Source: a virus. From it: 38,428 bases of DNA. The notes beneath the pieces were generated by a model. That model saw only the letters and a program-made list of their open reading frames with translations. It did not search any database and was not told where the DNA came from. Both the position numbers and the translations under genes were made by a program. Where the stretch lies: positions 1 to 38,428 of the IMG/VR virus record IMGVR_UViG_3300021963_000300. The stretch is one strand, 5' to 3'. This document shows positions 1 to 38,428 of this stretch, piece by piece; positions within the stretch are counted from its first letter, which is position 1, and each line of letters begins with the position of its first letter.

Positions 1-87
1 CAGTAATTACTATTGCCTGAGAAGTCTTTTCCTAGTCCAGCATTAGATGATGTAGTCAGAGCAGAGTTATCTGTGAAAGGCAGATAG
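1..87. repeat. Terminal direct repeat, left copy (circular overlap)
   Basis: Bases 1-68 are identical to 38342-38409. Bases 69-87 align with 38410-38428 at 13 of 19 positions. The repeat lies inside one fibre gene and the reading frame is continuous across the join, so it is best read as the overlap of a circular or circularly permuted assembly. A true terminal repeat of the packaged DNA, or a second paralogous gene copy, is less likely. Confidence 0.85.
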
Positions 88-755
88 AATCCATTAGTGC
101 CGTATGTTCCTGTGTATTTCTTAGGAATCCATACACCTGTGGTTGCGGATGTTTCACCGAATGAGGATGGGGTTAGGGCTTGACCATCAATGAAGTTTAC
201 TTCAGCCATGTAGCCATCAAAATTGTTTCTTACAGTAGTTGAAGATTGTTCTGCGCCTATGTTATATAACTGTCCATTTTCATTTAAAAATTTAAATGAT
301 GAGTTTTGTGTTGGCGCAACATTAAAAGAACCAGCAGTTTGACGGACATTATTTACCCAAACTTGCAATCTATCATTAGCAGTAGCCAAAGTTGTATCAA
401 AAACGCAAAGCACATGATACCAAGATGAAGGGTCACGATATACTGCGGCAGTTGAAAAATATCCGTTAGAACCTCTTTCGCCAAAATAAAGATTTTGACC
501 ATAATATTGAATTAAAGCATACCCACTACTTTCACCAGAGCCAACTAAATCCCCATTATTAGGGTCTGTTGATTGTGTAAATTTGCCTCTTTTAATCCAT
601 GCACTATAAGTCCCTTTTTGAGCATTAGTAGGGGTAGTTGCAGTCCTGTTTAGATAAGCAGAAGCACTAGACCGAAAGCGTAGGGAGTTGGTTAGGTTAT
701 AACCACCACCTTGACCAGATGCACCAGCAAGGATATTAGAACCGATAACTGACAT
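1..755 (-). CDS. Tail fibre, LamG-like N-terminal part (partial, continues at right end)
   Basis: The ATG at 755-753 begins MSVIGSNILAGASG and runs off the left edge after 251 complete codons, ending ...SGNSNY. The last two bases plus the base at 38341 make the Trp codon that continues as WTTNNIS in the gene at the right end. Joined over the 68-bp identical overlap, the protein is 813 residues (814 codons with stop). This segment resembles a LamG/concanavalin A-like lectin fold, a sugar-binding jellyroll common in phage receptor-binding fibres: it has a WIKRG-type strand, a SSWYHVLCVFDT strand and an FDGYMAEVNFIDG strand. It starts 8 nt after the stop of the preceding fibre gene, so it belongs to the leftward late operon. 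Assignment to LamG is by motif, not by search. Confidence 0.85.
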   Translation of the reverse strand, partial: MSVIGSNILAGASGQGGGYNLTNSLRFRSSASAYLNRTATTPTNAQKGTYSAWIKRGKFTQSTDPNNGDLVGSGESSGYALIQYYGQNLYFGERGSNGYFSTAAVYRDPSSWYHVLCVFDTTLATANDRLQVWVNNVRQTAGSFNVAPTQNSSFKFLNENGQLYNIGAEQSSTTVRNNFDGYMAEVNFIDGQALTPSSFGETSATTGVWIPKKYTGTYGTNGFYLPFTDNSALTTSSNAGLGKDFSGNSNY

Positions 756-763
756 TATTAGCC

Positions 764-1696: not shown

Positions 1697-2586
1697 TAAT
1701 ATGTTCCTCCGTCAAGGGTTCCTGTGATTTTGCTACCTGCCAAGGAGGTTATCCATGATGGGTCAGCATATGAACCGCCTAATGCAACATAGGTGCTTGC
1801 AGCGGTTGATGATGTTAAATAACTCGATAAATCTAATGTACTCCATTGAGTAGCATAATTGGTATTTGATGATTTTACTAAATATTGTCCGGTAGTGCCT
1901 CCCGCAGGAACACCAGCACCGTCAGCACCAGCAGGACCCGTTGCACCGGTTGCTCCTGTTGGTCCTTGTGGACCTGTAGCACCTGTTGCGCCTTGTGGAC
2001 CAGTATCGCCAGTGTCGCCTTTAGCACCCTGTGGACCAGTCGCTCCCGTTGCTCCTGTGGAGCCAGTTGCGCCTGTATCGCCTTTGTCGCCTTTAGCTCC
2101 TTGTGGTCCTGTAGCGCCGGTTGCGCCTGTAGCTCCGGTTGAACCGGTAGAGCCTGTCGCACCTGTGTTGCCTCGTGGAATACCAAGAGAAACAATTAAA
2201 TCATTTGAATCGTAACTAACTGTTGCATCAGCACCAGCAGATAAAGTAGTGACTTGAAATACAACTTCATCACCAAAGTTTAAAGTTGCATCTCTTGCTG
2301 CTTCTGCGTTGGTTTCTGCTGTTTCGGCATTTGTTTCTGCAACCAAAGCAGCATCTCTTGCTGACTCAGCAGAGTTCTTTGCATTAGTTGCGGTAGTAGC
2401 AGAGCTTGATGCTGAAGACGCTGAACCACTTGCTGCACTTGCAGAACTAGATGCGGCTGTGGAGCTGTTTTGTGCTTGGTTCTTGAAGTTTTCGGCTTGT
2501 TGTGCATATCCCTGTGCAACTACGGCTTGGTTAGAAGCATCGTTTGTAGCGTCTCCTGCACCACCGGGTCCTCGATAAATTGACAA
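1696..2586 (-). CDS. Collagen-like fibre protein
   Basis: This is a 296-residue virion protein. Residues 1-35 are a short head region. Residues about 36-100 are Ala/Ser/Thr/Asn-rich with a regular helical repeat (probable trimeric coiled coil). Residues about 139-224 form an almost unbroken Gly-X-Y run of roughly 28 triplets ([19 protein letters not shown] type). The C-terminus is a small domain ending [11 protein letters not shown]. Collagen-like runs in phage fibres form rigid trimeric rods. Its neighbours are an HNH gene upstream and two further fibre genes downstream. The DGGTY ending is shared with the 89-residue protein at 31882-32151, suggesting a common tip or docking element. The opposite strand of the Gly-X-Y run is open in several frames, which is a composition artefact. 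Confidence 0.85.
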
Positions 2587-2595
2587 GCTATTCTC

Positions 2596-3036
2596 CTAAA
2601 CTTTATTTGATTTACTTAAATTATCTTTTGCAGATAATACTTGTAAATTCCAAGGTACATGGAGACCACACACTGTTTTTCCTCGTAAAGGAACAATATG
2701 GTCTACATGAAAGTCAATATCAGTTAATTCTTTCTGTAGTTTTGCTAACCAATATAGTGATTCAATTTGTAAATAATGCTCCTTTGTTAGCCAACTTGGT
2801 GTAGCGTTTCGTTTACTATATTTATAAGTTGCTCGTGTTGCTCGTACTTTATCTTTGTTTATAAATTGCCAGTTTTTTACTTGAATTAAAACTTTATCTT
2901 TATTCTTTTTATAATATTCTTTTCGTGCTTTTTTGTTGCAAGTTTTACAATGAAAAGTATATTTGTCTTTAGTTTGTTTTGTTTTATGAAAGTCAACTAA
3001 AGATTTATACTCTTTACATTTTGTACATTGTTTCAT
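2596..3036 (-). CDS. Free-standing HNH endonuclease (homing-type), copy 1
   Basis: This 146-residue protein starts with two Cys pairs (CTKC near residue 4 and CKTC near residue 30), a zinc-finger pattern. A very Lys-rich linker follows, then an HNH core HVDHIVPLRGKTVCGLHVPWNLQ with the paired histidines and the Asn of the beta-beta-alpha metal fold. The C-terminal third matches the HNH at 36155-36646 closely. The gene is noticeably more AT-rich than its neighbours. It sits between the capsid terminator and the fibre block, as expected of a mobile intergenic endonuclease. It probably nicks or cuts DNA at related loci; the target is unknown. Confidence 0.85.
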   Translation of the reverse strand: MKQCTKCKEYKSLVDFHKTKQTKDKYTFHCKTCNKKARKEYYKKNKDKVLIQVKNWQFINKDKVRATRATYKYSKRNATPSWLTKEHYLQIESLYWLAKLQKELTDIDFHVDHIVPLRGKTVCGLHVPWNLQVLSAKDNLSKSNKV

Positions 3037-3047
3037 AAGAACATTAT

Positions 3048-3080
3048 AAAAAGACCCCCAGCCGAAACTGGAGAGTCTTG
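3048..3080 (-). terminator. Rho-independent terminator after capsid gene (leftward)
   Basis: Read on the minus strand just after the capsid stop, AAGACTCTCCAG pairs with CTGGGGGTCTT around a TTTCGG loop (3051-3079; one mismatch and one bulge), followed by a T run TTTTTATAATG. It should end most capsid transcripts before the HNH gene. Confidence 0.75.
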
Positions 3081-3091
3081 AGATGCCTATA

Positions 3092-4048
3092 TTAGGCGTT
3101 TACAGCGAGTACGAAGCCAGCTTCTGGGCGTACAGTCTTCACACCGAACAATGTGTCGGCAGTGTAGAGCGTAGACAGATACTCTTGCTTGTACTGAGTC
3201 TGGGAACGAACACCAAGTTGCTCGGCAAATACCATAGTATCAGTATGGAACAAGAGAGCAGCTTTAACTGCGTCACCAACAGAGTTAGCTGCAGCGGTCT
3301 CAATAACAGGCATATTGCTCGATACATAAACATCGATACCATATAACTTGCCAATTTGACCGTTGTTAACACCACGACCATCAACGAAGTCAGAGCTATT
3401 GTAACGGTCAATGCCCATGATAGCGTTGCGGAGTGATGGAGGAATAGCAAACTTACGACCATCCATTGGAACATCAGCGTCGTCCATCAACTGGATGAGC
3501 TTACGGAAACCAGCATCGGTGAATACATCGGAAGTAATAACGGTGTCTTCTGCGTACAGAGTTAAACCAGTCGTTGCATCAATGTAATACGAAGTGCTAT
3601 GTGTCCAGTCAGTTCCGTCACCGTCGCCAAAGGACTTGCCTAAAGCGATGAGTGTGTCATCAACTTTCTTAGCCAAAGCGTAACCAGCATCATCAGTGTA
3701 GAACGAACGCAAAGAAGACAATGCTTGAGTCTCAACGATGTCCTCGATGAAGCGTGAATACTCGAAGTGTTGGTCGATGAGAACTTGTACTTCGCTCTCG
3801 GTGTTAGCTTGGATGGTTACTGCAGTGTTAGCTGCTTTAGCTGCTGCTACGCCACGAGTTGGCTTAGGAATATGCAGTGTGTCGCCTTTTTTGCCTTTGA
3901 AAGACATTTTACGGACGAGGTTTGCAAGAACTAAGTTTGCCTTGTAGGCAGCGATGACTTCGTCACTCCAAATCTCTGGAATAAACTTGTCTGCTGCTGT
4001 TTTGTTGACGATAGATGTACTACCGCCGGGGTATGTTACTGCTGCCAT
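3092..4048 (-). CDS. Major capsid protein
   Basis: This 318-residue protein begins MAAVTYPGGSTSIVNKTAADKF and contains FIPEIWSDEVIAAYKANLVLANLV, typical of N-terminal regions of podovirus major capsid proteins of the HK97/P22 N4-gp56-like group. Later segments include EDIVETQAL, a Gly/Asp loop (GDGDGTDW), a SSNMPVIET strand and a C-terminal TLYTADTLFGVKTVRPEAGFVL strand pattern. It lies 34 nt downstream of the scaffold-like gene in the usual head order portal-scaffold-capsid. It is followed by a strong terminator, consistent with very high expression. No Cys residues are seen. Function is assigned from fold-like segments and gene order. Confidence 0.9.
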   Translation of the reverse strand: MAAVTYPGGSTSIVNKTAADKFIPEIWSDEVIAAYKANLVLANLVRKMSFKGKKGDTLHIPKPTRGVAAAKAANTAVTIQANTESEVQVLIDQHFEYSRFIEDIVETQALSSLRSFYTDDAGYALAKKVDDTLIALGKSFGDGDGTDWTHSTSYYIDATTGLTLYAEDTVITSDVFTDAGFRKLIQLMDDADVPMDGRKFAIPPSLRNAIMGIDRYNSSDFVDGRGVNNGQIGKLYGIDVYVSSNMPVIETAAANSVGDAVKAALLFHTDTMVFAEQLGVRSQTQYKQEYLSTLYTADTLFGVKTVRPEAGFVLAVNA

Positions 4049-5604: not shown

Positions 5605-7605
5605 TTATTGGTTTCGTTGTTTTTGCATCTGTAGTTCTACAATCTTGCCTTTATTCTTAATATCAGCCTCTTTGAGCATCAATTCAGCAATCTTGGCTCT
5701 CTTTTCAAACTCAGATTCTTTGTTTTTACCATCAATGTTGGTAGAAAGTGAACTAATGACCTTGGCACGAAGCTCTTCAGGCATCAGTTGGGTCTCTACA
5801 ACGGTCTTAGCAGCCTCTGCAGAGTCTTTTTGCGCCCTAGCCTGTAACGATTGAGTCGTCGCTTGCTTCTGTTCCATATCCATCTGTAGCGCCATCTGCT
5901 GCATTTGCGCTTGTTGTGGGTCTGGTTGACTCATTTGGGTCAATGCTTGCTCCAATTCAGCCCGATTAGAGAGGCTAGAGTTACCAATAATGCCTTTAAG
6001 GATGATTGGCAGGACTGGAGTATTAGGTCCAAGAGTCTGTAACAAGCCAATAAGCTGCTGTTGTTCGTACTCACGAGCCATGATACCCAAAGTAGCGCTA
6101 GGAATAAATGTCATGTCTACAGAAGGATAACGCTCAGGGTCAAACTGCATATAACGGAAGGCTGCTTTCTTAATCAGCGGAACCATGAAGTCTTCTTGGA
6201 AGTTTGTCAGAGTCCGCTTATACTTCTTGATAATACCAGCCATTGCCATTGACATACCAGCGCCAGACGCATCACGAGAGGCTTGAGATACAACTCCTTG
6301 GCTATCAAGTGTACCAGTTGCCATTAGGAGCATACGCTCAAACTCTTTAGAGGTAGCGAAGTTCTCTGGACTGGTTTGACCGAACTTGAATGGGAATAGA
6401 ATCTCTGCTGGATTACCATTCGTGAGGATTGCTTTACCGGGCTTAACTTCAAAGCGTGAGCCACGAGGTAGACGAGTAGCATCCATTGCAATCATTGGTG
6501 CTGTAGTCAGTGCTAGACTGTCAAGGTGACTGCGTAGTTGAGCATCGATAGCCTTTTGCATATTATAGGCTTTCTCAACAGTGCCACGACCCCAGAATCT
6601 ATTAGGGACAGTGTCATCCTGATACGCCAACACAGGGCGGTCTTGCATCATGTATGGGTTCTTCTCAGCTTTGAGTAAGAGTCCATCGTTAGCGATAACG
6701 ACAATCGCCTCTACTAGACCGCTGTAGGTATCAGCAGTGCTATCTTCAGGGAAGAGGTCAACAACTTCTTCACCTTCGTTTTCTAACTGTTCTAGGTACT
6801 CTCTAGGAACTAATCCATAATATGTCAGAAGTTTGACTTTGTCATCTTGGTACTGCACAACTTCTTGGGTAACTTCTAAGTCATCATCGTTGCCAGCAGG
6901 TCCGATGTCTACCTTACGATAGATACCCTTCTCCATACCTTCAACCACTTTGTGAATAGACACAAACTTCTCAATGGCACAACCCATCGCATCGTCAATC
7001 GAGGTAGCATTGGGGTCAATGAGGAAGTTCTTAGGATTAACAGGGTTTACCTTAACGCAGAAGTATTCTCTTTCTTGTACGCCATAGGCGGCTTGTTCCA
7101 TTCCCGGCATTGGCATCGTAGCAGGAACAAACTCTTTCTCTTGCTTAACAATAATTTCACCGATACCAGTTCCGTAAATCTCTGCCATTAATTCAATCTG
7201 GTCAATAGACTTACGAATCTTATGCTTTTCTAAATCTTCTTTGAGTTGAACCTTTAGTGCCTCAACATCCATCGGATTGTTGTTGTAGTCACGAACATCG
7301 TCTTTGATGTCAAAGAACTCTCCGTTACCAAAGATAGCTTCCATGATTTCAGCGTGGCGGGTTTCTACCGCTTGCTGAGTAGCTGGAGAAATTAGACGAC
7401 TTCTCTCGGACTCTCGTGTTTTGTCTTCGTCAGCCCAGATTCCACGAAAGATTCTTTCGTACTCTTTCCAATCTTCAAGGTAGTTCTCATCACGAGAATC
7501 TCTCCATCTGTCACAATGTTGAATAACAAAGGCACAAAGCTCTTTGTCTGCTTCAGAAGGTTCTTCCCAGCTAATACCTTCGTTCATGTCCATATTTTCA
7601 GCCAT
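5605..7605 (-). CDS. Portal (head-to-tail connector) protein
   Basis: This 666-residue protein forms the dodecameric ring through which DNA enters and leaves the head. The acidic N-terminus (GISWEEPSEADKELCAF) is followed by a conserved-looking helix (DENYLEDWKEYERIFRGIW), an SRLISPATQQAVETRHAEIMEAIF segment typical of podovirus portals, NPKNFLIDPNATSIDDA, a wing region, and DRPVLAYQDDTVPNRFWGRGTVEKA. The C-terminal 120 residues are Gln/Met/Lys-rich and helical (QMQQMALQMDMEQKQATTQ), matching the barrel or crown helices. It is longer than T7 gp8 (536 residues) and not obviously close to it. It lies 12 nt after the terminase large subunit gene, as usual. Confidence 0.9.
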   Translation of the reverse strand: MAENMDMNEGISWEEPSEADKELCAFVIQHCDRWRDSRDENYLEDWKEYERIFRGIWADEDKTRESERSRLISPATQQAVETRHAEIMEAIFGNGEFFDIKDDVRDYNNNPMDVEALKVQLKEDLEKHKIRKSIDQIELMAEIYGTGIGEIIVKQEKEFVPATMPMPGMEQAAYGVQEREYFCVKVNPVNPKNFLIDPNATSIDDAMGCAIEKFVSIHKVVEGMEKGIYRKVDIGPAGNDDDLEVTQEVVQYQDDKVKLLTYYGLVPREYLEQLENEGEEVVDLFPEDSTADTYSGLVEAIVVIANDGLLLKAEKNPYMMQDRPVLAYQDDTVPNRFWGRGTVEKAYNMQKAIDAQLRSHLDSLALTTAPMIAMDATRLPRGSRFEVKPGKAILTNGNPAEILFPFKFGQTSPENFATSKEFERMLLMATGTLDSQGVVSQASRDASGAGMSMAMAGIIKKYKRTLTNFQEDFMVPLIKKAAFRYMQFDPERYPSVDMTFIPSATLGIMAREYEQQQLIGLLQTLGPNTPVLPIILKGIIGNSSLSNRAELEQALTQMSQPDPQQAQMQQMALQMDMEQKQATTQSLQARAQKDSAEAAKTVVETQLMPEELRAKVISSLSTNIDGKNKESEFEKRAKIAELMLKEADIKNKGKIVELQMQKQRNQ

Positions 7606-7617: not shown

Positions 7618-8874
7618 TTAATAGCCACTAACCACATCTAATGCTTGCCATTCGTCTTCGTCATTGTCAATACTGTAGCTAGTGACAGCGAGTTGGTCAA
7701 TATAACTTAATGCATCCACTAAGTCGTCGTGTACATTAGAGGTAGGAAACATCAATAGTTGGTCAACAAACTCATCAAAGTCTTCTTCAGCATTGAGTAT
7801 AACTCGTCCATGCTCAAAGCGTCCTTGTAGTCCCCAAACAATCCTATCTACTTTTTTCTTATTGCCATGCGTTAAATCTAAGATATGTGCGTAACAGTTG
7901 TTCTTTCGCATCAAATCACTGAGATAAGGCAAGACTGCATTCTTTAGCGCCCCTCGCTCAATTCCAACTGCTAGAGGTTCGTATTCTCTAATATTCTTTA
8001 AGATGTTCAGTGCGGTGGTTTGTATATCCCAACGACCAGCTTCAATCTTATCGACAAACCAAATGCCATCATCGGTTACTTTTACAACTGCGATAGCGGA
8101 CTGGTCTAGTCTTTTCTTAGTGGCATTGGCGCTTTTAGCGACATCTTCAAAGCCAGCTAGGTCTACTGCAATATACCACGAACCAATCTCAGGTTCATCG
8201 CCAAACTTAATCCATTCTTCTTTAAATAATCCTGCACCAGCATTATTGAAGGAAGACAAATATTCTTGATTGAACGCAAAAGAACTTAATGTGCGTTTAG
8301 CAGCTTCAATCTCTTTCGGGTCAATCGTTTCATTGTCAGCGGTGGTAAAGTGCCACGACTTCCAATCTGCATCGTCTCCACTCTGTCCCAACTGAAACCA
8401 ATCATAGAAATGGTTTCGTCCAGACGGAGTCGAGATAAACATTGCTCTACCTTTTTTATCCGACAAAGCAGCACGAAGCACTCGTTCCCAAATCTCTGAC
8501 TTGATAAAAGCGACCTCGTCCATTACCAAGTACGACAAAGACACACCACGCAAAGAGTCTTGGTTGTCAGCGCCTCGAATGAGGATTTTCTTGCCGTTAA
8601 CCAAAGTTATCTCAAGATTGTTGATATGTGCGGATTTGATGACAGGCTTTCCTAAGTCCATCAACAAGTCCCACATAATCGTCCGGGCTTGTCCTAGTGT
8701 TGGTGCAACATACATCACACTTGAACCTTCTGGACAGTTTAATCCTTCAATCAACAGCGTTACTGCTGACAACCTTGACTTTCCACAGCGACGACCAGCA
8801 GCGATTACTTTGAATCTGCTTTGGTCTTTGAAGACAGTTTGCTGCCACTTCAGCAGTTTAAAATCAAGATTCAT
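7618..8874 (-). CDS. terL: Terminase large subunit
   Basis: This 418-residue packaging motor ATPase and nuclease carries a Walker A variant AAGRRCGKS at residues 25-33, an adenine-side motif near VMYVAPTLGQAR (53-64), a Walker B LVMDEVAF (116-123) and a coupling STPSG motif (FISTPSGRNHFYDW). The C-terminal RNase H-like nuclease starts at WYIAVDLAGFED and ends at VHDDLVDALSYI with its acidic residues. It overlaps the small subunit gene by 11 nt. Length is usual for the family (about 400-600), slightly short. It cuts genome concatemers and drives DNA into the procapsid through the portal. Confidence 0.95.
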   Translation of the reverse strand: MNLDFKLLKWQQTVFKDQSRFKVIAAGRRCGKSRLSAVTLLIEGLNCPEGSSVMYVAPTLGQARTIMWDLLMDLGKPVIKSAHINNLEITLVNGKKILIRGADNQDSLRGVSLSYLVMDEVAFIKSEIWERVLRAALSDKKGRAMFISTPSGRNHFYDWFQLGQSGDDADWKSWHFTTADNETIDPKEIEAAKRTLSSFAFNQEYLSSFNNAGAGLFKEEWIKFGDEPEIGSWYIAVDLAGFEDVAKSANATKKRLDQSAIAVVKVTDDGIWFVDKIEAGRWDIQTTALNILKNIREYEPLAVGIERGALKNAVLPYLSDLMRKNNCYAHILDLTHGNKKKVDRIVWGLQGRFEHGRVILNAEEDFDEFVDQLLMFPTSNVHDDLVDALSYIDQLAVTSYSIDNDEDEWQALDVVSGY

Positions 8875-10199: not shown

Positions 10200-11069
10200 A
10201 TGAGCGCATTAGTCTATCAACAAGTAACCGATAAAATCATTGCTGAGCTAGAGAGCGGTAACATCCCTTCATGGGTTAAAAATTGGAGCGGCGAAGCCGG
10301 TAGTGACTGTAATGTTATTAGTAAGAAAACCTACAGCGGCATTAATACTATTATTCTCGGCATGAGCGGGTTTAAATCACCGTATTGGGGTACATATAAG
10401 CAATGGGTTAGTATCGGCGCTCAAGTAAGCAAGGGAAGCAAGGGTACCCATATTATATTTTATTCACCGGTAGAAAACGGTAGTAAGATAACCGAAGCCG
10501 GCGAAGTTAAAAACTATAGCTATGTCCTAAAATCCTACACTGTATTTAATGCCGAGCAAGTTACCGGGTTTGAAGCGCCGGCAATACCAGCACCGAAGGT
10601 TTTTAATGATGTCGCTAGTATTGAAGCGCTAACGGTTAAAAGCGGAGTACAGTTACAATTTGGCGGAGATAGAGCGTACTATTCACCGTCGCAAGATTAT
10701 ATTGCAATGCCGCATAAAACCCAATTCAATAGCGAAGCCAGCTATTATGCAACATTGTTGCATGAGTTAGCGCATTGGAGCGGGCATAAATCAAGATTAG
10801 ATAGGGATTTATCGGGACGGTTTGGTAATGAAGCATACGCCGCCGAAGAGCTAATCGCTGAGCTAAGCGCCGCATTTTTATGCGCTCGTTACAGTATCAC
10901 CGGTGAATTGCGGCATTCTAGTTATATTGCTAGTTGGCTAAGGGTATTAAAAAACGATAATAAAGCAATATTTAAAGCGGCGGCATTAGCGCAAAAATCC
11001 GCCGATTATCTAGCTGGGTTTGCCGGTGAAATGGTAAGCGAAGAGAGCGAAGAGCTAGAAACAGCATAG
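10200..11069 (+). CDS. ArdC-like antirestriction protein with zincin-type domain
   Basis: This 289-residue protein has an N-terminal ArdC-type domain (about residues 1-125: VYQQVTDKIIAELESG, IPSW, YSGINTIILG, YWGTYKQW, GAQVSKGSKGTHIIFY) followed by a metallopeptidase-like domain with the zinc motif HELAHWSGH at 188-196 and a downstream Glu-rich helix (YAAEELIAELSAAFLC). ArdC proteins bind single-stranded DNA and protect incoming DNA from type I and II restriction. Being the first gene of the early block fits entry-phase defence. It and the next two genes use many AGC, ACC and GGC codons and contain unusually many CCGG sites compared with the rest of the phage, suggesting a separate origin. 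Confidence 0.85.
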   Translation: MSALVYQQVTDKIIAELESGNIPSWVKNWSGEAGSDCNVISKKTYSGINTIILGMSGFKSPYWGTYKQWVSIGAQVSKGSKGTHIIFYSPVENGSKITEAGEVKNYSYVLKSYTVFNAEQVTGFEAPAIPAPKVFNDVASIEALTVKSGVQLQFGGDRAYYSPSQDYIAMPHKTQFNSEASYYATLLHELAHWSGHKSRLDRDLSGRFGNEAYAAEELIAELSAAFLCARYSITGELRHSSYIASWLRVLKNDNKAIFKAAALAQKSADYLAGFAGEMVSEESEELETA

Positions 11070-14708: not shown

Positions 14709-14853
14709 GCAAATATGCGAACAGGATTTAACGAGGCAGGTCTTGGAACTTCAGGACCAATTAGTCAAAACACAAACCGAACTAGTTATGGCACTGGCGG
14801 AAGTCGAAGCGCTACGCTGTCAACTTATTACGGCGGAAAGAAGTCAACATTGA
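14683..14853 (+). CDS. Small coiled-coil protein (56 aa)
   Basis: The ATG at 14683 follows TGGAGAG with good spacing. The product is helical: MTTWTSEDRQICEQDLTRQV, then LELQDQLVKTQTELVMALAEVEALRCQL with a heptad pattern. Its TGA (14851-14853) overlaps the TTG start of the primase-helicase (TTGA). This gene explains why the primase frame is open for 135 nt upstream of its likely start. Confidence 0.6.
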   Translation: MTTWTSEDRQICEQDLTRQVLELQDQLVKTQTELVMALAEVEALRCQLITAERSQH

Positions 14854-16436
14854 CTGAAAGCAAATACATTAAACACATACCCTGTGAGGCGTGTGGCAGT
14901 AGCGATGCAAACAGTTTGTTCGATGATGGACACCAATACTGCTTTGCTTGCGAGACCTATGTCGCAGGTGATGGCACAACCACGAAGGTATCTAAAAAAC
15001 CAATGAATAAGGAACTTAAATTTTATGACTCTGCTACTTATCTTAGTATCGTTGACCGTAGTATTACTTCGGCTACTTGCATAGCATTTGGCGTTAAGCA
15101 GGACAATGGCAAACACTATTATCCTTACTATAACCCTGATGGCAGTATGGTTGCTATCAAGACTCGAAGTGTGGAAGACAAAGCATTTAGTGTCACTGGC
15201 GACTTCAAAGACGCTACGCTGTTTGGACAGAACTTGTTCGCCAAGTCTGGTCGCTATCTGACTATCTGTGAGGGTGAATTAGACGCTCTAGCGGCTTATC
15301 AGATGCAAGGTAGTAAGTACCCTTGCGTGAGTATCCGCAGTGGCGCTAGTGGCGCTCTAAAGGACTGTAAAGCCCAATATGAATGGATTGATTCGTTTGA
15401 GAACATTGTCTTAGCGTTCGATGCCGATGAACCCGGACAGAAAGCAGCACAGGCAGTCGCTGAGTTATTCGGTGGCAAAGTTAAAATCATGAAACACAGG
15501 ACTGGATACAAAGATGCGTGTGATTATCTTGAGAATAACGCTAGTAAAGAATTTGTTGATACTTGGTGGGGTGCTGAGTCTTATATCCCTGATGGGATTG
15601 TGCAAGGTAACAGTCTCTGGGATATGGTATCAGCGCCTATTGAGAAGGCTGATTGTGACTACCCGTACGAGGCACTTAATAAGCTCACATACGGCATCCG
15701 CAAGGGTGAACTCGTTATGGTCACAGCAGGAAGTGGACTTGGCAAATCACAATTTCTTAGAGAGATTGTATGGCACATACTTAACAAGACAACCGACAAC
15801 ATTGGACTTATGTTTCTTGAAGAGGGAGTCCGCAAAACAGCTCGGTCTCTCATGTCATTAGCAATAAACAAACCGATTCATCTACCTGATGTTGAGGTAT
15901 CACCGGAGGAGTTAAAAGATGCATTTGATAGAACTTTGGGAAGTGACCGTGTTTATCTGTTTGACCATTTTGGCAGCACTTCTTTGGAAAATATTGTCAA
16001 CAGAGTGCGATACATGGCTAAGGGTCTTGGCTGTGGTTATGTCTTTCTTGACCATATTAGTATTATTGTCAGCGGCGGTGATGTTGGCGATGAACGCAAA
16101 GCTCTAGATGCTATCATGACCAAGCTACGCATGATTGTGCAAGAGACTGGTATCAGTTTGATTTGTGTCTCACACCTAAAGCGTAACGAAGGTCGTGGAC
16201 ACGAAGAAGGTGCTGTGACTTCGTTGGCGCAGTTGCGTGGTTCAGGTGCTATTGCACAGCTATCAGACATCGTGATAGGGCTAGAGCGCAACGGACAAGC
16301 TGAAGATATGATTGAGAGGAACACCACCAGTGTTAGGGTATTAAAGAATCGATTTAGCGGATACACTGGTAATTGTGGCGCTTTGCTGTATAATGGACAA
16401 ACTGGAAGAATGTTAGAAATTAAGGACACACTATGA
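14850..16436 (+). CDS. Bifunctional DNA primase-helicase (T7 gp4-like)
   Basis: This replication primase-helicase is 528 residues from a TTG start at 14850. That start overlaps the upstream stop (TTGA), has GGAAAGAAG 6 nt before it, and places the zinc finger where T7 gp4 has it. In order: zinc ribbon HIPCEACGSSDANS...CFAC, TOPRIM primase with ICEGELDALAAYQ and LAFDADEPGQKAAQ, linker, then RecA-like helicase with Walker A TAGSGLGKS, EEGVRKTARS, Walker B-like VFLDHISIIVSG, motif H3 ICVSHLKR and an arginine-finger region (VRVLKNRFSGYTG). A longer form from an ATG at 14715 would overlap a better-supported gene. T7 gp4 is 566 residues. Confidence 0.95.
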   Translation: MTESKYIKHIPCEACGSSDANSLFDDGHQYCFACETYVAGDGTTTKVSKKPMNKELKFYDSATYLSIVDRSITSATCIAFGVKQDNGKHYYPYYNPDGSMVAIKTRSVEDKAFSVTGDFKDATLFGQNLFAKSGRYLTICEGELDALAAYQMQGSKYPCVSIRSGASGALKDCKAQYEWIDSFENIVLAFDADEPGQKAAQAVAELFGGKVKIMKHRTGYKDACDYLENNASKEFVDTWWGAESYIPDGIVQGNSLWDMVSAPIEKADCDYPYEALNKLTYGIRKGELVMVTAGSGLGKSQFLREIVWHILNKTTDNIGLMFLEEGVRKTARSLMSLAINKPIHLPDVEVSPEELKDAFDRTLGSDRVYLFDHFGSTSLENIVNRVRYMAKGLGCGYVFLDHISIIVSGGDVGDERKALDAIMTKLRMIVQETGISLICVSHLKRNEGRGHEEGAVTSLAQLRGSGAIAQLSDIVIGLERNGQAEDMIERNTTSVRVLKNRFSGYTGNCGALLYNGQTGRMLEIKDTL

Positions 16437-17370: not shown

Positions 17371-17741
17371 AACTCAATAACGATAATCGTTTTGATATTG
17401 ATTTAGAATATGGACAAATCTTTGAACAAAAGATTGCTGATATATTTCAGAACAGTAAAATTGAAGTTAAAACTGAGAGAGATAAATGGAATTCTACCGG
17501 TAACATTGTAATTGAATTTGAGAGTCGTGGACATCCTAGTGGCATTGCTGTTACAAAATCAGACTTTTGGTTTCATAATCTAGCGTTGAATGGTGAACTA
17601 ATTATGACACTTGTGTTCCCTGTGGCGGTGCTAAAACGATATATTGCAGATAATAAACCTAGAGTTGTGCGTGGTGGTGATGATAATACTTCTAAATTAT
17701 ACTTGATTAATCTTACAGACTTGGTTACAATAATTAAATGA
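17367..17741 (+). CDS. Putative PD-(D/E)XK-like nuclease (124 aa)
   Basis: The segment YGQIFEQKIADIFQNSKIEVK followed by TERDKWNSTGNIVIEFE has the order of a small restriction-fold nuclease: helix with Glu, then an acidic residue and an ExK (IEVKTE) strand, then a second strand with E. GHPSGIAVTKSDFWFHNL follows, a region found in phage endonuclease-like proteins of this type. It overlaps the DNA polymerase start by 4 nt. It could resolve replication intermediates or degrade host DNA. Assignment is by motif only. Confidence 0.65.
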   Translation: MKLNNDNRFDIDLEYGQIFEQKIADIFQNSKIEVKTERDKWNSTGNIVIEFESRGHPSGIAVTKSDFWFHNLALNGELIMTLVFPVAVLKRYIADNKPRVVRGGDDNTSKLYLINLTDLVTIIK

Positions 17742-19387
17742 GAATTGTTCTTGATATTGAAACCAATTTATTTCCAGATAAAATCTGGTGCGTTGTTGCT
17801 CGTGATATTGACACCAATCAAATACACATTTGGCAGAACTTTGTTGGATTACAGAATTTTCTAGACCGAGCAGAACAGATTATTGCTCACAATGGAATTT
17901 TCTTTGATGTGCCTGTTCTAAAGAACTTATGGAAAATAACGATTGCGGAAGAAAAGATTGTTGATACCTTAGTGATGTCTCGTCTTTATAATCCACAACT
18001 TGAAGGTGGACACAGTCTAGCGGAGTGGGGTAAGCGTATTGGATTTTTTAAGAGTAGTTTTGAATCATTCAACGGCGGTCTTACTCAAGAAATGCTTGAC
18101 TATTGCATTCAAGATACATTAGTAACACAGAAACTGTATGAACATTTAACCAAGGAGATGTCACATGACTATTCGCAAGAAAGTATCAAACTCGAACACG
18201 AAGTTGCGTTCATCATCGCAGAGCAAGAACGAAACGGATTCCGATTCGACGAAGTTAAAGCTCTACAATTACTATCTGTTCTTAAAACTAAGCTGGACGC
18301 TATTTGCGTTGAAATGCAAAGGATATTTCCTCCCAAGGTCACTTCTGGTCGCACCCACAAAACTCATGGTAGACCCCTTCCCGACATCGTGGAAGACTTC
18401 AATCCCGGAAGTCGCAAGCAAATCGCCGAAAGGCTCATCGAGAAGGGTTGGAAGCCGAAAAAGCGTACCGAAAAAGGTAGCGTCATCGTCGACGAAACCA
18501 CGCTCGAAGGTCTCGACTTCCCCGAAGCGAAAGCCATCGCTGAGTACTTGATGTTACAAAAGCGGATTGCACAGGTTGAGAGTTGGATTGATGCAATTCA
18601 AACCGATGGGCGTGTGCATGGTCAAGTGATTACTAACGGCGCAGTTACAGGTCGTATGACACACCACAGCCCTAACATGGCGCAGGTTCCCAATAGCGGT
18701 AGTCCTTATGGACCAGACTGTAGAGAACTTTGGACAGTTAATAAAGGATATAAATTAGTTGGCATCGATGCAAGCGGTTTAGAGTTACGGATGCTGGCTC
18801 ATTATATGAAAGATGATGCGTATACTAATGAAGTTGTATCAGGCGACATTCACACAGCAAACCAGAAAGCAGCAGGGCTTGAGACAAGGAACCAAGCTAA
18901 GACTTTTATCTATGCATTTCTCTATGGTGCGGGAAGTACCAAGATTGGGTCAATTGTTGGAGGTTCATCGAAAGAAGGACAAGCACTCATTACTAGTTTT
19001 CTACGCAACACGCCGAGGCTCAGAGCGTTGCGGGAAAAAGTATCTCGTATCTATGCTCAGAAAGCGTGGCTACCGGGTCTTGACGGACGCAAGCTACTCG
19101 TTCGGGCGGAGCATTCAGCGCTCAACACGCTATTGCAGGGCGCTGGTGCGATAGTAATGAAACAGGCTGTAGTGATTTTACACAAGAAGTTGCGTAAGTC
19201 AAAGATAGACTTTAAGATGGTGGTAAACTGCCATGACGAATGGCAAATAGAAACAACTCCTGAATCTGCAGAACTTGTTGGTAAGTTAGGCGTTGATTCA
19301 ATACGGGAAGCTGGAGAACACTTTAATATGAGATGTCCGTTAACAGGAGAATATAAGATTGGGGAGTCTTGGCGTGATACCCACTAG
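17738..19387 (+). CDS. DNA polymerase I family (T7-like), with 3'-5' exonuclease
   Basis: This 549-residue replicative polymerase has exonuclease residues D6/E8 (LDIETN), HNGIFFD (51-57) and YCIQD (122-126). Polymerase motif A is GIDASGLELR (342-351), motif B RNQAKTFIYAFLYG (384-397) and motif C NCHDEW (497-502). T7 gp5 is 704 residues; this enzyme is shorter and shows no long thumb insertion corresponding to the thioredoxin-binding loop, so processivity must come from elsewhere. Bases about 18165-18545 (residues about 143-269) are visibly more GC- and CpG-rich than both flanks, suggesting a recombined segment. The 3' end overlaps the next gene. Confidence 0.95.
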   Translation: MRIVLDIETNLFPDKIWCVVARDIDTNQIHIWQNFVGLQNFLDRAEQIIAHNGIFFDVPVLKNLWKITIAEEKIVDTLVMSRLYNPQLEGGHSLAEWGKRIGFFKSSFESFNGGLTQEMLDYCIQDTLVTQKLYEHLTKEMSHDYSQESIKLEHEVAFIIAEQERNGFRFDEVKALQLLSVLKTKLDAICVEMQRIFPPKVTSGRTHKTHGRPLPDIVEDFNPGSRKQIAERLIEKGWKPKKRTEKGSVIVDETTLEGLDFPEAKAIAEYLMLQKRIAQVESWIDAIQTDGRVHGQVITNGAVTGRMTHHSPNMAQVPNSGSPYGPDCRELWTVNKGYKLVGIDASGLELRMLAHYMKDDAYTNEVVSGDIHTANQKAAGLETRNQAKTFIYAFLYGAGSTKIGSIVGGSSKEGQALITSFLRNTPRLRALREKVSRIYAQKAWLPGLDGRKLLVRAEHSALNTLLQGAGAIVMKQAVVILHKKLRKSKIDFKMVVNCHDEWQIETTPESAELVGKLGVDSIREAGEHFNMRCPLTGEYKIGESWRDTH

Positions 19388-19769
19388 AAAATGTAATTCG
19401 TGTGGTCTTGTGTCAGACCAACTGGAAAAATTTGTAAAAAGTAATACGAGTAAATACGGACGAAGAAACGAATGTATCTCTTGTCGTGTTTCTAGGAATT
19501 TATTAAATCCAAAGATTAAGGACTGGAAAACAGACCATCAAACCAAGAAACGATACGGAGTTGATGCTGAAACCTACAAACAAAGAATGGCTGCACAAAC
19601 AAGTTGTGAAATCTGTGGAAAAACAGAAGAACTTTGTTATGACCATTGCCATGATACAATGGAGTTTCGAGGTGTTTTATGTCGAGGATGCAACCTGTCT
19701 TTAGGACAACTTGGTGATAACCTAGAGGGTATTCTTAAAGTTGTTAAATATCTCACCAAAGGAAAATGA
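19374..19769 (+). CDS. Endonuclease VII-like HNH nuclease
   Basis: The protein is 131 residues from the GTG at 19374, chosen because GGGGAG lies 7 nt upstream; an in-frame TTG at 19359 is possible. The N-terminus has a CNSCG...CISC zinc pattern. The core CEICGKTEELCYDHCHDTMEFRG and VLCRGCN matches recombination endonuclease VII (PF02945), which cuts branched DNA such as Holliday junctions. In T7-like phages an equivalent enzyme (gp3) resolves junctions before packaging. It overlaps the polymerase by 14 nt. A homing role is an alternative. Confidence 0.85.
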   Translation: MIPTRKCNSCGLVSDQLEKFVKSNTSKYGRRNECISCRVSRNLLNPKIKDWKTDHQTKKRYGVDAETYKQRMAAQTSCEICGKTEELCYDHCHDTMEFRGVLCRGCNLSLGQLGDNLEGILKVVKYLTKGK

Positions 19770-23143: not shown

Positions 23144-25051
23144 ATGACACAATACACAATGAGTCCCTATAACACTTTTATTGCTAAATCACGATACAGT
23201 CGCTATCTTGACGATAAAGGTCGCAGAGAACACTGGAGTGAAACTGTAGCACGCTATTTTGATTTTATGACAGAACACCTACAGAAGAAACAGAACTACA
23301 CATTACCACCCGAGTTACGCAAAGAATTAGAAACTGCTGTTGTTAATCTTGAAGTAGTGCCATCTATGAGAGCTGTGATGACAGCAGGACCAGCACTAGA
23401 GCGTCAGAATGTCGCAGCATTTAATTGTTCATATTTACCAATTGATGACCCTAAAGCCTTTGATGAAGCAATGTATATTCTTCTGTGTGGCACTGGTGTC
23501 GGCTTTTCTGTGGAGCAACAATATGTTTCTAAATTACCTGAAGTCCCTGAGCAGTTGTTTTCTAGTCAGACTACTATTGTTGTGTCGGATTCTAAAGAAG
23601 GATGGGCTAAATCACTTAGACAGCTCATTGCTTTACTATATTCTGGTGAAGTTCCAAGGTACGACTTATCCAAAGTTAGACCTGCCGGAGCTAGACTCAA
23701 AGTATTCGGAGGTCGTGCTTCTGGACCCGGACCTTTGGAAGAACTTTTTAAGTTCACTATTGCCAAGTTTAGAGGGGCAGTTGGTCGTCGTTTGTCATCC
23801 ATTGAGTGTCACGATATTCTCTGTAAAATCGGGGAAGTTGTTGTTGTGGGTGGAGTCAGACGCAGTGCAATGATTAGTCTGTCTGATTTGTCAGACGACA
23901 AGATGGCACACGCTAAAGCAGGTGCGTGGTGGGATGGTCAAGGACAACGAGCCTTAGCCAATAACTCTGCCACCTATGCCGAAACACCTAGTATCGGTCA
24001 GTTTATGCGTGAATGGTCAAGCATCTATGAATCACACTCTGGAGAGCGAGGTATATTTAATCGTGAAGCATCTCAGAAACAGGCAGCAAAGAATGGTCGC
24101 AGAGACGAAACCTATGCTTTTGGCACTAATCCTTGTAGTGAAATTATCCTTCGTCCTTACCAGTTTTGTAATCTTTCCAGTTGTATTGTTCGTAGCTACG
24201 ATACTGTATCTACCTTGGAGAATAAGATTCGCTTGGCAACGATTCTTGGTACATTTCAAGCATCGCTAACAGAGTTTCCTTACTTGCGTAAGATTTGGGA
24301 AAAGAACACCAAAGAAGAGGCGCTATTGGGTGTGTCTATGACTGGTATCTGCGACAATAAGCTACTGAACAATCCTGATGATGAGGACTTACCTGCAAGA
24401 TTGGAGAGACTACGAGATGTGGCTATCACTACTAACATTGAATTTGCTTCAGCTATTGGTATTAATCAGTCTGTGGCGGTTACTGCTGTCAAACCAGAAG
24501 GAACAGTTTCTCAGCTTTGCAGTACTGCTTCTGGGATTCATCCTCAACATAGCAAGTATTACATACGCCGTGTTCGGGCTGATAACAAAGACCCACTAAC
24601 ACAGTTTATGCTCTCCTCTGGCTTTGTCGGTGAGCCTTGCTATCTAAAACCAGACTCTACAACTGTCTTTAGCTTTCCAGTTAAGGTAGATGATGGTGGT
24701 CTATTGCGTGAGGATTTGACAGCGATTCAACACTTACGCCTGTGGCTACTGTTCCAGCGACATTACTGTGAGCATAAGCCATCTGTCACCATTTCAGTGC
24801 GTGAAGACGAATGGATGGATGTCGGTGCGTGGGTGTTTAAGCACTTTGATGAGGTAACAGGGGTGTCTTTCCTACCGATGGATGGTGGCACTTATAAGCA
24901 AGCGCCTTATGAAGAGTGTGATGAAGAGACTTACAACAAGTTAAAAGCCTTAGTTCCTAGTGCGGTAGACTGGGAGAACTTCAAGGAGTATGACGATAAT
25001 GTTGAAGGCGCTCAGACTTTGAGCTGTACTGCAGGTGGGTGTGAAATCTAA
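23144..25051 (+). CDS. nrdJ: Adenosylcobalamin-dependent (class II) ribonucleotide reductase, monomeric type
   Basis: This 635-residue enzyme reduces ribonucleotides to deoxyribonucleotides for phage DNA synthesis using coenzyme B12. C95 (FNCSYLP) and C342 (FCNLSSC) form the reducible pair; C331 in NPCSEIIL is the thiyl radical site with E333. The 2-residue and 11-residue spacings to E333 and C342 equal those in the Lactobacillus enzyme. The C-terminus SCTAGGCEI supplies the re-reducing Cys pair (C628, C633). LLCGTGVGFSVE and VKPEGTVSQL are typical barrel segments. The protein is about 100 residues shorter than the L. leichmannii enzyme. It is the last gene of the rightward block. Confidence 0.95.
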   Translation: MTQYTMSPYNTFIAKSRYSRYLDDKGRREHWSETVARYFDFMTEHLQKKQNYTLPPELRKELETAVVNLEVVPSMRAVMTAGPALERQNVAAFNCSYLPIDDPKAFDEAMYILLCGTGVGFSVEQQYVSKLPEVPEQLFSSQTTIVVSDSKEGWAKSLRQLIALLYSGEVPRYDLSKVRPAGARLKVFGGRASGPGPLEELFKFTIAKFRGAVGRRLSSIECHDILCKIGEVVVVGGVRRSAMISLSDLSDDKMAHAKAGAWWDGQGQRALANNSATYAETPSIGQFMREWSSIYESHSGERGIFNREASQKQAAKNGRRDETYAFGTNPCSEIILRPYQFCNLSSCIVRSYDTVSTLENKIRLATILGTFQASLTEFPYLRKIWEKNTKEEALLGVSMTGICDNKLLNNPDDEDLPARLERLRDVAITTNIEFASAIGINQSVAVTAVKPEGTVSQLCSTASGIHPQHSKYYIRRVRADNKDPLTQFMLSSGFVGEPCYLKPDSTTVFSFPVKVDDGGLLREDLTAIQHLRLWLLFQRHYCEHKPSVTISVREDEWMDVGAWVFKHFDEVTGVSFLPMDGGTYKQAPYEECDEETYNKLKALVPSAVDWENFKEYDDNVEGAQTLSCTAGGCEI

Positions 25052-25071
25052 TTCCTAAGTCGTGTCTTTAT

Positions 25072-25098: not shown

Positions 25099-25151
25099 GT
25101 TTCTGATAATGTACAAATTGTCTGTAAATGTTAATAAATACCGACATTCTG

Positions 25152-25983: not shown

Positions 25984-26435
25984 TATTGTTTATACCCCCA
26001 AGTTAGATACCAAGCAATGACCGCAGCCACTGCATAGCACATGAACATTGCTCTACGAACCTTTGCCAAATCGTGTTTAAACTCTCGATTAAGTTCATTA
26101 TCTTGTTTCTCTATCTTTTGTTTAATGGATTCGATTTCACTCCAGCGTTTAGCTCCATGCTTTCTTATGAAATCAGCTTTGACTTTAGCTTCTTCGATAC
26201 GGATGGTTTCTTGGCGTTGCCATTCCATCATTGCTCTCTTGAAATACTGCTCTTTAAAGACCTGAGCTTCTCTTATCTGTCTCTTACGCTCTAGGTCCTT
26301 CTGCTGCGCTACTGCTGCAGCGTCCTTCTGTACATCGGTAATGCTTTTGGTAATAGATTTACTAGCCTCTCGACTAGCATCCATGCTACTGGTTACAGAC
26401 TTTGCTCCTTCGATAAACCCAAATTGGTCTGACAT
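25983..26435 (-). CDS. Coiled-coil protein with C-terminal membrane helix (150 aa)
   Basis: Residues about 25-125 are one long, highly charged helix (DLERKRQIREAQVFKEQYFK; IEEAKVKADFIRKHGAKRW; IKQKIEKQDNELNREFK). Residues about 130-147 form a hydrophobic segment (MCYAVAAVIAWYLTW). No signal peptide or lipobox is visible. The place before holin and endolysin suggests a spanin-like or lysis accessory role, but the membrane segment is at the wrong end for a classic i-spanin. An internal virion or tail-anchored protein is the alternative. Confidence 0.6.
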   Translation of the reverse strand: MSDQFGFIEGAKSVTSSMDASREASKSITKSITDVQKDAAAVAQQKDLERKRQIREAQVFKEQYFKRAMMEWQRQETIRIEEAKVKADFIRKHGAKRWSEIESIKQKIEKQDNELNREFKHDLAKVRRAMFMCYAVAAVIAWYLTWGYKQ

Positions 26436-26451
26436 GGAATCATATTCTTAA

Positions 26452-34423: not shown

Positions 34424-34431
34424 GAGTTATT

Positions 34432-34956: not shown

Positions 34957-34957
34957 A

Positions 34958-35098: not shown

Positions 35099-35103
35099 AA
35101 TAA

Positions 35104-36151: not shown

Positions 36152-36154
36152 TTT

Positions 36155-36646
36155 TTACACTCCTATAAATTTGTTGCCTTTGCTTATATTTTCAAAGGCT
36201 GGTAAATATTGTAAATTTGTTTCTACATGAAGCCCACAAACATTATTACCTTGTAATGGAATTATATGGTCTACATGGTAACCTTTTGGTCTATTCATGT
36301 ATATATCTTTTATTGCTTGAACATTAGCCCATTTAGGTATTTGGTTTTTTTGTGCTTTGTCATATTTTGTAGAATTAAATGTTTTGTATTCTTTTGTATA
36401 TGATTGTCCATGAGTTGTATTAAGTTTTCTTAATATTTCTCTAGATTTTTCTTTTCTAAAACACCCACAAGAAACAATAAGTTTTCTTCTTAAATTTGTT
36501 CCAGTAATAACCTTTGATTCTCCACAATCACAAATACAAAGCCATTGCAAATTACTGTGTTTATCTTTACCGCAATCAGAAATGACAGTAAGCCTACCAA
36601 ACCTATAGTTTGTAATGTCTTTTCCTTTATTGGTAACTAAAGGCAT
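36155..36646 (-). CDS. Free-standing HNH endonuclease (homing-type), copy 2
   Basis: This 163-residue protein begins with a NYRFGRLTVISD domain and a four-Cys site (CICDCGE...SCGCF) typical of homing-type phage endonucleases. A C-terminal HNH core HVDHIIPLQGNNVCGLHVET matches the HNH at 2596-3036, including NLQ and ASN/K-rich ends. It is AT-rich compared with neighbours. It is wedged between the fibre gene and its assembly gene with 3-8 nt spacing. The target is probably a nearby tail gene allele lacking it. Confidence 0.85.
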   Translation of the reverse strand: MPLVTNKGKDITNYRFGRLTVISDCGKDKHSNLQWLCICDCGESKVITGTNLRRKLIVSCGCFRKEKSREILRKLNTTHGQSYTKEYKTFNSTKYDKAQKNQIPKWANVQAIKDIYMNRPKGYHVDHIIPLQGNNVCGLHVETNLQYLPAFENISKGNKFIGV

Positions 36647-36654
36647 ATTAGTTC

Positions 36655-38428
36655 CTATCGTGCGTTGGAAAATTTCAGGGGGGTTTCGGCAAATGCCATG
36701 TATATTAAAGTTTGACCGCTATCATTTAAGCCGTTTCCTGTGCCTCTTATTTTAAATCCATTTGATGTTAAATCTATTGGATAAGAACCAAATGTTCCTT
36801 CTGCGGAAGAAGATGATGGAAGTAACAATAAGTCTGTTGCGTTATATGTATTTCTAGCTGAATCATAAATTTGCCAGTTTGTTCCGCCAGCGCTTGATAG
36901 CTTTATAAGCACAAACCTAGGTCTAAACCCAGTAAATATAAACGGACCATCAGCACTTCCGTTGCCTGTGTATGAGCCAAATGCAGAGTATCCAGCAATT
37001 TGTGCAAAGCAGTAGGCTACATAGGTGTCTGAACTTGCATTTACACTAACATCGGTTGAAATATAAAACACAGATGATGTTGGTGCAGTATTTTGCCAAA
37101 AGTTAAATGTTGCGGCAGCATTAGTAGAATTTAATCTTAAATATTGAGTTGCCGCTAACTGATTGCTATACACAAACCAAGCATCGACATTATTTCTTCT
37201 TTTAACAATATATATAGAGGGTGCAACACCAAGTCCATGCCCTACAGTTGAATTTGCTCCATTACCTGTATAAGTAACAATACTAAATCCAGCAGTTGTA
37301 TTAGCACTTACTGTAGATGTAATAGAACCTGCTGTGTTGGTTACGGCTGGAGTTCCATTTGCTCGCCATTGCCAAGCGACATAGGTATAACCACTTTGGT
37401 TGGTTTGATAGCTTCCGCTATTAACAAGGGTAAATCCATTGCTATTAAAAGCCGTTAATTCGCCTGTTCCACCATAGTTTGCCGCACCTGTTCCGTTTGA
37501 AGCTAAAACATTTTGCACACCTCTAACAGAGTCAAATAATCCATGGTCAAGTGCATTGCTTCTTGATTTAAGCCATACAAAGTCAGGTTGCATAGAACCG
37601 CTATTAGTAATGCTTTGAGTTCCGCTATTACCTGTATACAAACTTGCATCAAAATACTTATTCGCTGTTGTAGATGCAGTAGCACCAATCGTAGGAGTAG
37701 GTAAGTTAAATGTGTTGAGTCTATTAAAGCCTGTTGGTGGGGTGTAGGTAAATGGTTGTTGTCCAAAGTTAAATTGTGCATCATTTGTAGACGCTATTCG
37801 ACCAACTGAAACAAACCAAGTTTCCGATGCAATAGAGCTTACTGTTGCGTTTGTGCCAGTGGCAGGATTACCTGAATTATAATAAGTTCCGTTTTTAGCA
37901 AACCAAAGTTTTCCAGTATCAGCATCAAAAGCAAGGCTAATAATATCGCCACTTGCAAATGTAGACATTCCACTTACTAAAGCAGAACTGTTATACATTA
38001 CTGCACCAGTATCTCCACGATAACCATAACCTTTAGTATCGCTACCAACCCAACTACTTAAATTTGCGCCAGCAGTAGTAATTCCAAAAATACTACCACC
38101 GCCACCAGCCGTCATTTCGCAATACCATTTACCGCTTGACATTCCTAATGTAGATTGCAAACTTTCAGCAGAACCACCTGAAATTACGGCATTTAAATTA
38201 CCATTAGTTGCGCTAACATTTGCACCTTTAGACAAAGGATTTAACACACAATAATTAGCCGCAGTAGCACTTGTCAGCGTAGGCACATCGGTCATGCTGT
38301 CATAAGTAGAGCCTGATGTAATGCTGATATTGTTTGTAGTCCAGTAATTACTATTGCCTGAGAAGTCTTTTCCTAGTCCAGCATTAGATGATGTAGTCAG
38401 AGCAGAGTTGTCGGTAAATGGTAAATAG
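36655..38428 (-). CDS. Tail fibre, SPRY and DUF7483-like C-terminal part (partial, continues at left end)
   Basis: The open frame enters from the window edge as YLPFTDNSALTTSSNAG and runs to the stop at 36655. It is the continuation of the gene at 1-755; the ATG at 38295 is internal. Joined length is 813 residues. Domain order after the LamG part: linker NISITSGSTYDSMTDVPTLT, a SPRY-like domain (KWYCEMTAGGGGSIFGI; GYGYRGDTGAVMYN; GDIISLAFDADTGKLWFAKN), then DUF7483-like repeats (DFVWLKSRSNALDHGLFDS; YVAWQWRANG; SIYIVKRRNNVDAWFVYSN; FVLIKLSSAGGTNWQIYD), ending FAETPLKFSNAR. It is likely the receptor-binding fibre. Confidence 0.85.
   Translation of the reverse strand, partial: YLPFTDNSALTTSSNAGLGKDFSGNSNYWTTNNISITSGSTYDSMTDVPTLTSATAANYCVLNPLSKGANVSATNGNLNAVISGGSAESLQSTLGMSSGKWYCEMTAGGGGSIFGITTAGANLSSWVGSDTKGYGYRGDTGAVMYNSSALVSGMSTFASGDIISLAFDADTGKLWFAKNGTYYNSGNPATGTNATVSSIASETWFVSVGRIASTNDAQFNFGQQPFTYTPPTGFNRLNTFNLPTPTIGATASTTANKYFDASLYTGNSGTQSITNSGSMQPDFVWLKSRSNALDHGLFDSVRGVQNVLASNGTGAANYGGTGELTAFNSNGFTLVNSGSYQTNQSGYTYVAWQWRANGTPAVTNTAGSITSTVSANTTAGFSIVTYTGNGANSTVGHGLGVAPSIYIVKRRNNVDAWFVYSNQLAATQYLRLNSTNAAATFNFWQNTAPTSSVFYISTDVSVNASSDTYVAYCFAQIAGYSAFGSYTGNGSADGPFIFTGFRPRFVLIKLSSAGGTNWQIYDSARNTYNATDLLLLPSSSSAEGTFGSYPIDLTSNGFKIRGTGNGLNDSGQTLIYMAFAETPLKFSNAR
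38342..38428. repeat. Terminal direct repeat, right copy (circular overlap)
   Basis: Matches 1-87: 68 identical bases, then 13 of 19 in the last part. The six differences are all in synonymous codon positions of the fibre gene. Removing this copy gives a circle of 38,341 bp with the fibre frame intact. Confidence 0.85.

Follow-up and report, generated by a model that had tools for sequence, protein, structure and literature searches.

Absence of type II restriction-like words from an uncultured virus record and its relatives

The IMG/VR virus record IMGVR_UViG_3300021963_000300, analysed here over its full length of 38,428 nt (hereafter the window), is classed as 'linear' and is best read as the genome, or most of the genome, of an uncultured tailed phage. 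Genes for capsid, portal, terminase and replication proteins lie on it (Table 1), and a direct repeat of 87 bases, 93% identical, at positions 1-87 and 38342-38428 is either a terminal repeat, albeit imperfect, or the duplicated end of a gene. The subject of this report is a set of short words missing from this DNA. A first-pass annotation, made from the letters alone, had claimed that four palindromic tetramers, GATC, GGCC, CGCG and ACGT, are absent from the whole genome. All four were counted 0 times, against 121.1, 49.7, 53.2 and 72.7 expected, respectively, under a maximal-order Markov model. The absence holds over all 38,428 bases, but completeness of this 'linear' record, and with it the words 'whole genome', is unproven. 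A count of all 256 tetramers against the Markov expectation, proposed in the annotation as a check, gave zero for these four only. Selectivity was also confirmed: the other 12 palindromic tetramers stood at 0.60-1.12 of expectation, several being mildly low (0.6-0.8), and CCGG and GCGC, which match GGCC and CGCG in composition, were normal.

Synonymous codons were shuffled in 300 rounds within the 50 open reading frames (ORFs) called by script, with proteins and codon usage kept. The shuffled sequences contained on average 94.5 GATC, 48.3 GGCC, 46.2 CGCG and 91.9 ACGT (minima 67, 34, 27 and 68), against 0 observed for each. The number of avoided sites in the annotation proved too low. CCWGG, which it had mentioned in an aside as not noticed, was indeed at 0 against 34-46 expected (shuffle minimum 17), and GDGCHC was at 0 against 28.5 expected. 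RCATGY, AAGCTT and CAGCTG were also at zero (10, 9.7 and 8.4 expected), as were CTTAAG, GCTAGC and TTCGAA, each weak when taken alone (Poisson p of 0.0013, 0.0046 and 0.077) but strong in the pooled relatives. Low but not zero were GGYRCC (4 observed against 24.8 expected) and GRCGYC (1 against 12.8); GGWCC was kept (21 against 36).

Relatives were collected by scanning IMG/VR with the primase-helicase of the window. Of 452 related stretches found, the 80 best served as loci, and 18 contigs including the window were studied; the loci are related to each other and overlap the contigs. The grouping of loci omitted L004, L023, L053, L068 and L074, and L045 and L066 were assigned to clade A. Clade A, to which the window belongs, was without or nearly without GATC, GGCC, CGCG, ACGT and CCWGG. 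Group B (contigs G015, G016, G017, G019 and G020) was without GATC, GGCC, CCWGG and mostly CGCG; usually about half of the expected ACGT was kept, and some loci of this group, such as L022, L031, L039 and L040, had zero ACGT. Clade C was without or nearly without GATC, GGCC, CGCG, ACGT, CCGG, GCGC and all GGNNCC, and kept CCWGG. None of the 18 contigs had more than 5 copies of GGCC (range 0-5). On a primase tree made by a quick method (82 rows with the outgroup HTVC115P counted; 28 of the 70 inner branches weak; group B not a single clade), the minimum number of status changes was 7 for ACGT, 2 each for GATC, CCWGG and GCGC, 1 each for CGCG and CCGG, and 0 for GGCC, rows with an intermediate ratio or a low expectation being uncounted (0-19 per word). 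No change was scored for the unaffected words AGCT, CATG and CTAG. Local clusters account for one GATC change (L004) and for the CGCG change (L029). The banned set thus differs between sister lineages.

The nature of the eliminated words was examined in pooled counts from 7, 5 and 3 of the 18 contigs; G012 with its end cluster, G014 and G033 were left out. A word was scored as eliminated when observed/expected was below 0.1, the threshold of Rusinov et al. (2018). In the clade A pool (7 contigs, 237 kb), elimination affected 4 of the 16 palindromic tetramers and 0 of the 120 non-palindromic ones. One non-palindromic 5-mer among 496 testable was eliminated, and this was CCAGG, half of CCWGG. 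For 6-mers the numbers were 13 of 47 testable palindromes versus 5 of 1921 non-palindromes; four of the latter are asymmetric words covered by the degenerate palindromes GDGCHC, GRCGYC and RCATGY, and the fifth is GCGAGC. About a dozen further depleted sites were found in this pool, nearly all of them palindromes or members of degenerate palindromes. The pooled near-miss words were mostly unaffected: GDGCHC was observed 6 times against 191 expected and the rest of GNGCNC 155 against 127; RCATGY 0 against 63 and the rest of NCATGN 567 against 504; CCWGG 1 against 234 and CCSGG 154 against 87; AAGCTT 1 against 64 and its near-miss words 853 against 790. In clade C, GGNNCC was at 0 against 109 expected and GCTNAGC at 1 against 40. 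Depleted words of group B were GATNNNNATC (3 against 35), GAATGC (7 against 67) and GCAGGC (4 against 44), of which the latter two fit no confidently named specificity. Orthodox type II enzymes read palindromic and degenerate sites in this manner. The eliminated words look like type II specificities, and their near-misses are mostly normal, with GGYRCC as an exception.

We next compared the window with six relatives lying 10-14% apart in aligned DNA, the single-nucleotide differences being relocated at random with base and codon position kept; the window is a member of every pair, and the six comparisons are not independent. In all six pairs the number of gained GATC, GGCC, CGCG and ACGT was 0, although 30-49, 18-28, 15-23 and 22-42 gains per pair, respectively, were expected. 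The other 12 palindromic tetramers were gained at 0.5-1.2 of expectation, summed over pairs. Since no gain was seen across this divergence despite 15-49 expected, selection against the four words is ongoing, and selection rather than mutation bias is indicated.

The absence has local exceptions. Locus L004, whose primase protein is 99% identical to that of the window, carries 12 GATC, every one of them inside 1913-4048, with the remainder of its 10.6 kb free of the word; in the GATC-containing stretch GGCC and CGCG are at 0 (2.5 expected for each) and ACGT at 1 (7.7 expected). Contig G016 carries 12 CGCG within 24539-25578 (L029 7119-8158) against 1.9 expected, and G017 carries 7 within 32772-33145 against 1.0, the rest of either contig having none. 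The end of G012 (25441-27810) holds 13 ACGT, 3 GATC (9.8 expected) and 1 CCWGG, with GGCC and CGCG at 0 against 8 expected for each. All these stretches are still without most other banned words, their expectations being small. We suggest that they may be modules from phages with another banned list. In the 29-kb contig G033 (L068), GATC occurs throughout (60 against 108 expected) and GDGCHC is at 20 against 31, with GGCC and CGCG both at 0; this is a lineage released from some of the pressures.

An effect was also observed on proteins. Trp-Pro is encoded by TGG-CCN, which includes GGCC in every codon choice, and no synonym escapes; the five short words force no other dipeptide and no additional tripeptide. 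As TGG-CCN must contain GGCC, the loss of Trp-Pro together with GGCC is a logical necessity, and the biological point is that selection is strong enough to remove it. In ORFs of at least 60 residues called by a simple script, with expectations based on composition, Trp-Pro was at 0 in all 18 contigs (79 expected; Pro-Trp 73) and in all 80 related loci (122 expected; Pro-Trp 125). Of 14 control phages (six cut at 50 kb), the six with three or fewer GGCC had no Trp-Pro (about 40 expected), and the eight keeping GGCC had 40 (about 52 expected). Five control Trp-Pro could be aligned with the window, the alignments giving no direction of change. In the primase, three from GGCC-retaining phages (two of CRP-804 and one of HTVC119P) align with Tyr-Pro of the window; in the DNA polymerase, that of HTVC119P aligns with Phe-Pro and that of ICBM2 with Asn-Cys. 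A literature search limited to listings of open-licence papers gave no fitting report of a Trp-Pro ban.

Phages have been described to escape restriction by eliminating type II sites (Rusinov et al. 2018, PMC6286503). In that paper, excluded phage-site pairs make up 3.9% of the experimental set and 7.5% of the subset in its Fig. 4a. The near-total loss of orthodox type II sites is the same here; the window differs in having at least five sites at zero together and degenerate classes depleted almost completely, and its family in the variation between sister lineages and in the loss of a dipeptide. Sequences under lethal recognition words have been modelled in the theory of taboo-free sequences (Manuel and von Haeseler 2020, PMC7560954). 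This is mathematical work, in which about 87% of the bacteria in REBASE are given fewer than four type II enzymes, whereas the present phage family avoids more than ten sites. Site avoidance by phages is known; of interest here are its breadth, the switching between lineages and the effect on protein, and the window is an extreme case. Among the 14 controls, 0 to 4 tetramers were eliminated, so that the four of the window are at the top of the range and not outside it.

Several control phages resemble the window in part. Escherichia phage T7 also avoids GATC (6 observed against 143 expected) and CCWGG (2 against 59), but has only one tetramer eliminated and contains two Trp-Pro. Anabaena phage A-4L and Microcystis phage Mic1 (first 50 kb), the latter with an annotated DNA adenine methylase, share the elimination of GATC, GGCC, GDGCHC and GGYRCC and the lack of Trp-Pro; unlike the window they keep ACGT and eliminate GGWCC, and A-4L also keeps CGCG and CCWGG. 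A-4L served as positive control, with GGWCC at 0 against 28 expected and CYCGRG at 0 against 10; these words are recognised by the Anabaena enzymes AvaII and AvaI, respectively. In HTVC115P, ACGT, GATC, GGCC, CCWGG and GDGCHC are likewise eliminated and Trp-Pro is at 0; this phage differs in that GCGC is also eliminated, GC is 33%, the record is 54.8 kb and the host is marine SAR11.

The annotation's statement that no methyltransferase gene was recognised was borne out within the families searched: PF01555 and PF05869 had no match in 38 related records (the window not among them, and records may be fragments), PF02086 had none in 20 records that included the window, and PF00145 gave none in the window, the only record searched for it. 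For the window itself, 17 ORFs were scanned against PHROGs and/or Pfam, the script having called 50. The same annotation had offered the ArdC-like anti-restriction protein as part of the explanation, and this did not hold up. Relatives of ArdC were found in only 5 of the 18 contigs including the window, and because of this patchiness, with GGCC near zero in all 18, ArdC is rejected as the cause of the missing sites and is at most an extra.

We infer, with a probability of about 0.86, that purifying selection removed the words, the agents being numerous orthodox type II restriction enzymes spread over the host range. The phage lineage would meet hosts that together carry many such systems. Without a recognised methyltransferase of its own, a genome with a cognate site would be cut on entry and lost, and site-creating mutations would be purged continuously. 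Most sites would be dodged by synonymous codons, and where no synonym exists, as for Trp-Pro, the amino acid pair would be absent. The avoided list would follow the restriction systems met by each lineage, and would therefore differ between sister lineages and be relaxed in some.

General avoidance of palindromes, or a compositional or mutational bias without restriction, might be proposed from the mildly low level of several other palindromes in the window and from the gains of TATA, TCGA, CCGG and AATT at 0.5-0.6 of expectation. Against this, only 4 of the 16 palindromic tetramers are eliminated with CCGG and GCGC normal in the window, CCWGG is gone whereas CCSGG is above expectation, and in none of the 300 synonymous shuffles did the count of any of the four tetramers or of CCWGG approach zero. 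By the shuffles, the near-miss words and the substitution test, this explanation is strongly disfavoured and has a minimal chance. An artefact of assembly or library, conceivable for a metagenomic contig, is scarcely credible: the contig names of the loci come from many IMG/VR sample numbers, GATC is scored absent in 77 of the 82 tree rows and GGCC likewise in 77 of 82, and one digestion step would not remove five words.

Nucleases encoded by the phage could instead cut these words in host DNA, the phage genome having been purged to survive. The Endonuclease VII-like protein matches the PADLOC REase_II model, and ORFs at 2596-3036 and 36155-36646 look HNH-like by eye, although no Pfam family was matched. 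However, roughly one enzyme would be required for each of more than ten unrelated specificities, the former protein is the one scanned ORF of the window that matches a restriction-enzyme model and could account for one specificity at most, and banned sets differ between sister lineages; phage nucleases are thus a very improbable source. BREX-, DISARM- and phosphorothioate-linked defences exist, as do modification-dependent nucleases acting after host methylation, and any of these word-reading systems might be the agent. This we consider improbable, as the words are mostly palindromic, 4-6 bp long and degenerate like orthodox type II sites.

Several observations weigh against selection by type II enzymes. 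Control palindromes were also gained below expectation in the substitution test (CCGG 56 against 109, TATA 157 against 290, TCGA 135 against 233, AATT 237 against 395), and a milder general effect may therefore exist. The near-misses of GGYRCC are also low, the rest of GGNNCC being at 124 against 177 in clade A and 63 against 131 in group B. We know of no enzyme for GCGAGC, depleted in clade A, or GAATGC, depleted in group B. In G033, with its 60 GATC, none of the three methyltransferase families looked for was found, and a phage methyltransferase behind the return of GATC in this contig is unsupported. Three phages recorded from SAR11 strain HTCC7211 differ from each other: HTVC115P (L120) eliminates the six words named above and GGYRCC, HTVC103P (L126) eliminates ACGT, GATC and four longer sites, and HTVC119P (L130) eliminates none of 25 words tested. 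The isolation host is therefore no predictor of avoidance, which may reflect long-term host range or lifestyle instead. Finally, no host was identified and no restriction gene was seen in the searches made. The scan of genome contigs with the primase-helicase gave one distant locus (35% identity, Marinicella marina). With ArdC as query, 3057 plasmid records matched; a single one reached 60-80% identity, all others stayed under 60%, and the 25 that were listed are proteobacterial. Positions 1-25000 of the window gave nothing against plasmids for spacer-like matches (E up to 1), and no near match against phages. Bloom-forming cyanobacteria are described as rich in restriction systems in one study (PMC8262939), which makes them no more than candidate hosts.

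Under selection by host restriction enzymes, each lineage's banned list might record in readable form which restriction systems occur across its whole host range, be decodable into degenerate specificities (some perhaps without an enzyme so far), mark imported modules and bar Trp-Pro where GGCC is banned; for this extension we see the balance as even. If host restriction genes match, metagenomic phage genomes could reveal the restriction systems of uncultured hosts, and the list could be usable as a clue to host range and a marker of recent gene exchange. The case shows the reach of restriction on a viral genome, with hundreds of expected sites gone, zero counts maintained through 10-14% divergence and protein sequence touched.

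The gene content of the window is summarized in Table 1. The best-listed relatives of its replication genes are mostly phages of alphaproteobacteria, and relatives of the capsid protein include freshwater cyanophages.

Table 1. Features of the window with positions and strand
Feature	Position	Strand	Remarks
Major capsid protein	3092..4048	-	Best E-values among 25 listed of 84 matches: Mastigocladus phage CHP58, Leptolyngbya phage LPP-2 (32-36% identity)
Portal protein	5605..7605	-	
Terminase large subunit	7618..8874	-	
ArdC-like anti-restriction protein	10200..11069	+	ArdcN + zincin metallopeptidase (PF08401 + PF18818)
GP88-like phage protein	11149..11814	+	PF17338
DNA primase-helicase	14715..16436	+	Query for relatives, basis of tree
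DNA polymerase	17738..19387	+	Matches PHROG DNA polymerase and DNA polymerase I families
Endonuclease VII-like protein	19359..19769	+	Also matches PADLOC 'REase_II' model, E 2.3e-9
Ribonucleotide reductase	23144..25051	+	Nearest named relatives annotated cobalamin-dependent

The named phage with the closest primase is Pelagibacter phage HTVC115P (52% identity), the top three being HTVC115P, HTVC104P and HTVC103P. HMO-2011-type phages share a typical gene set, and their genomes are about 55 kb according to the records; the window, compared by its primase alone, is 38.4 kb and may be incomplete. Just downstream of the primase-helicase in L068, at about 3242-3748, lies an ORF that resembles an HNH homing endonuclease by eye.

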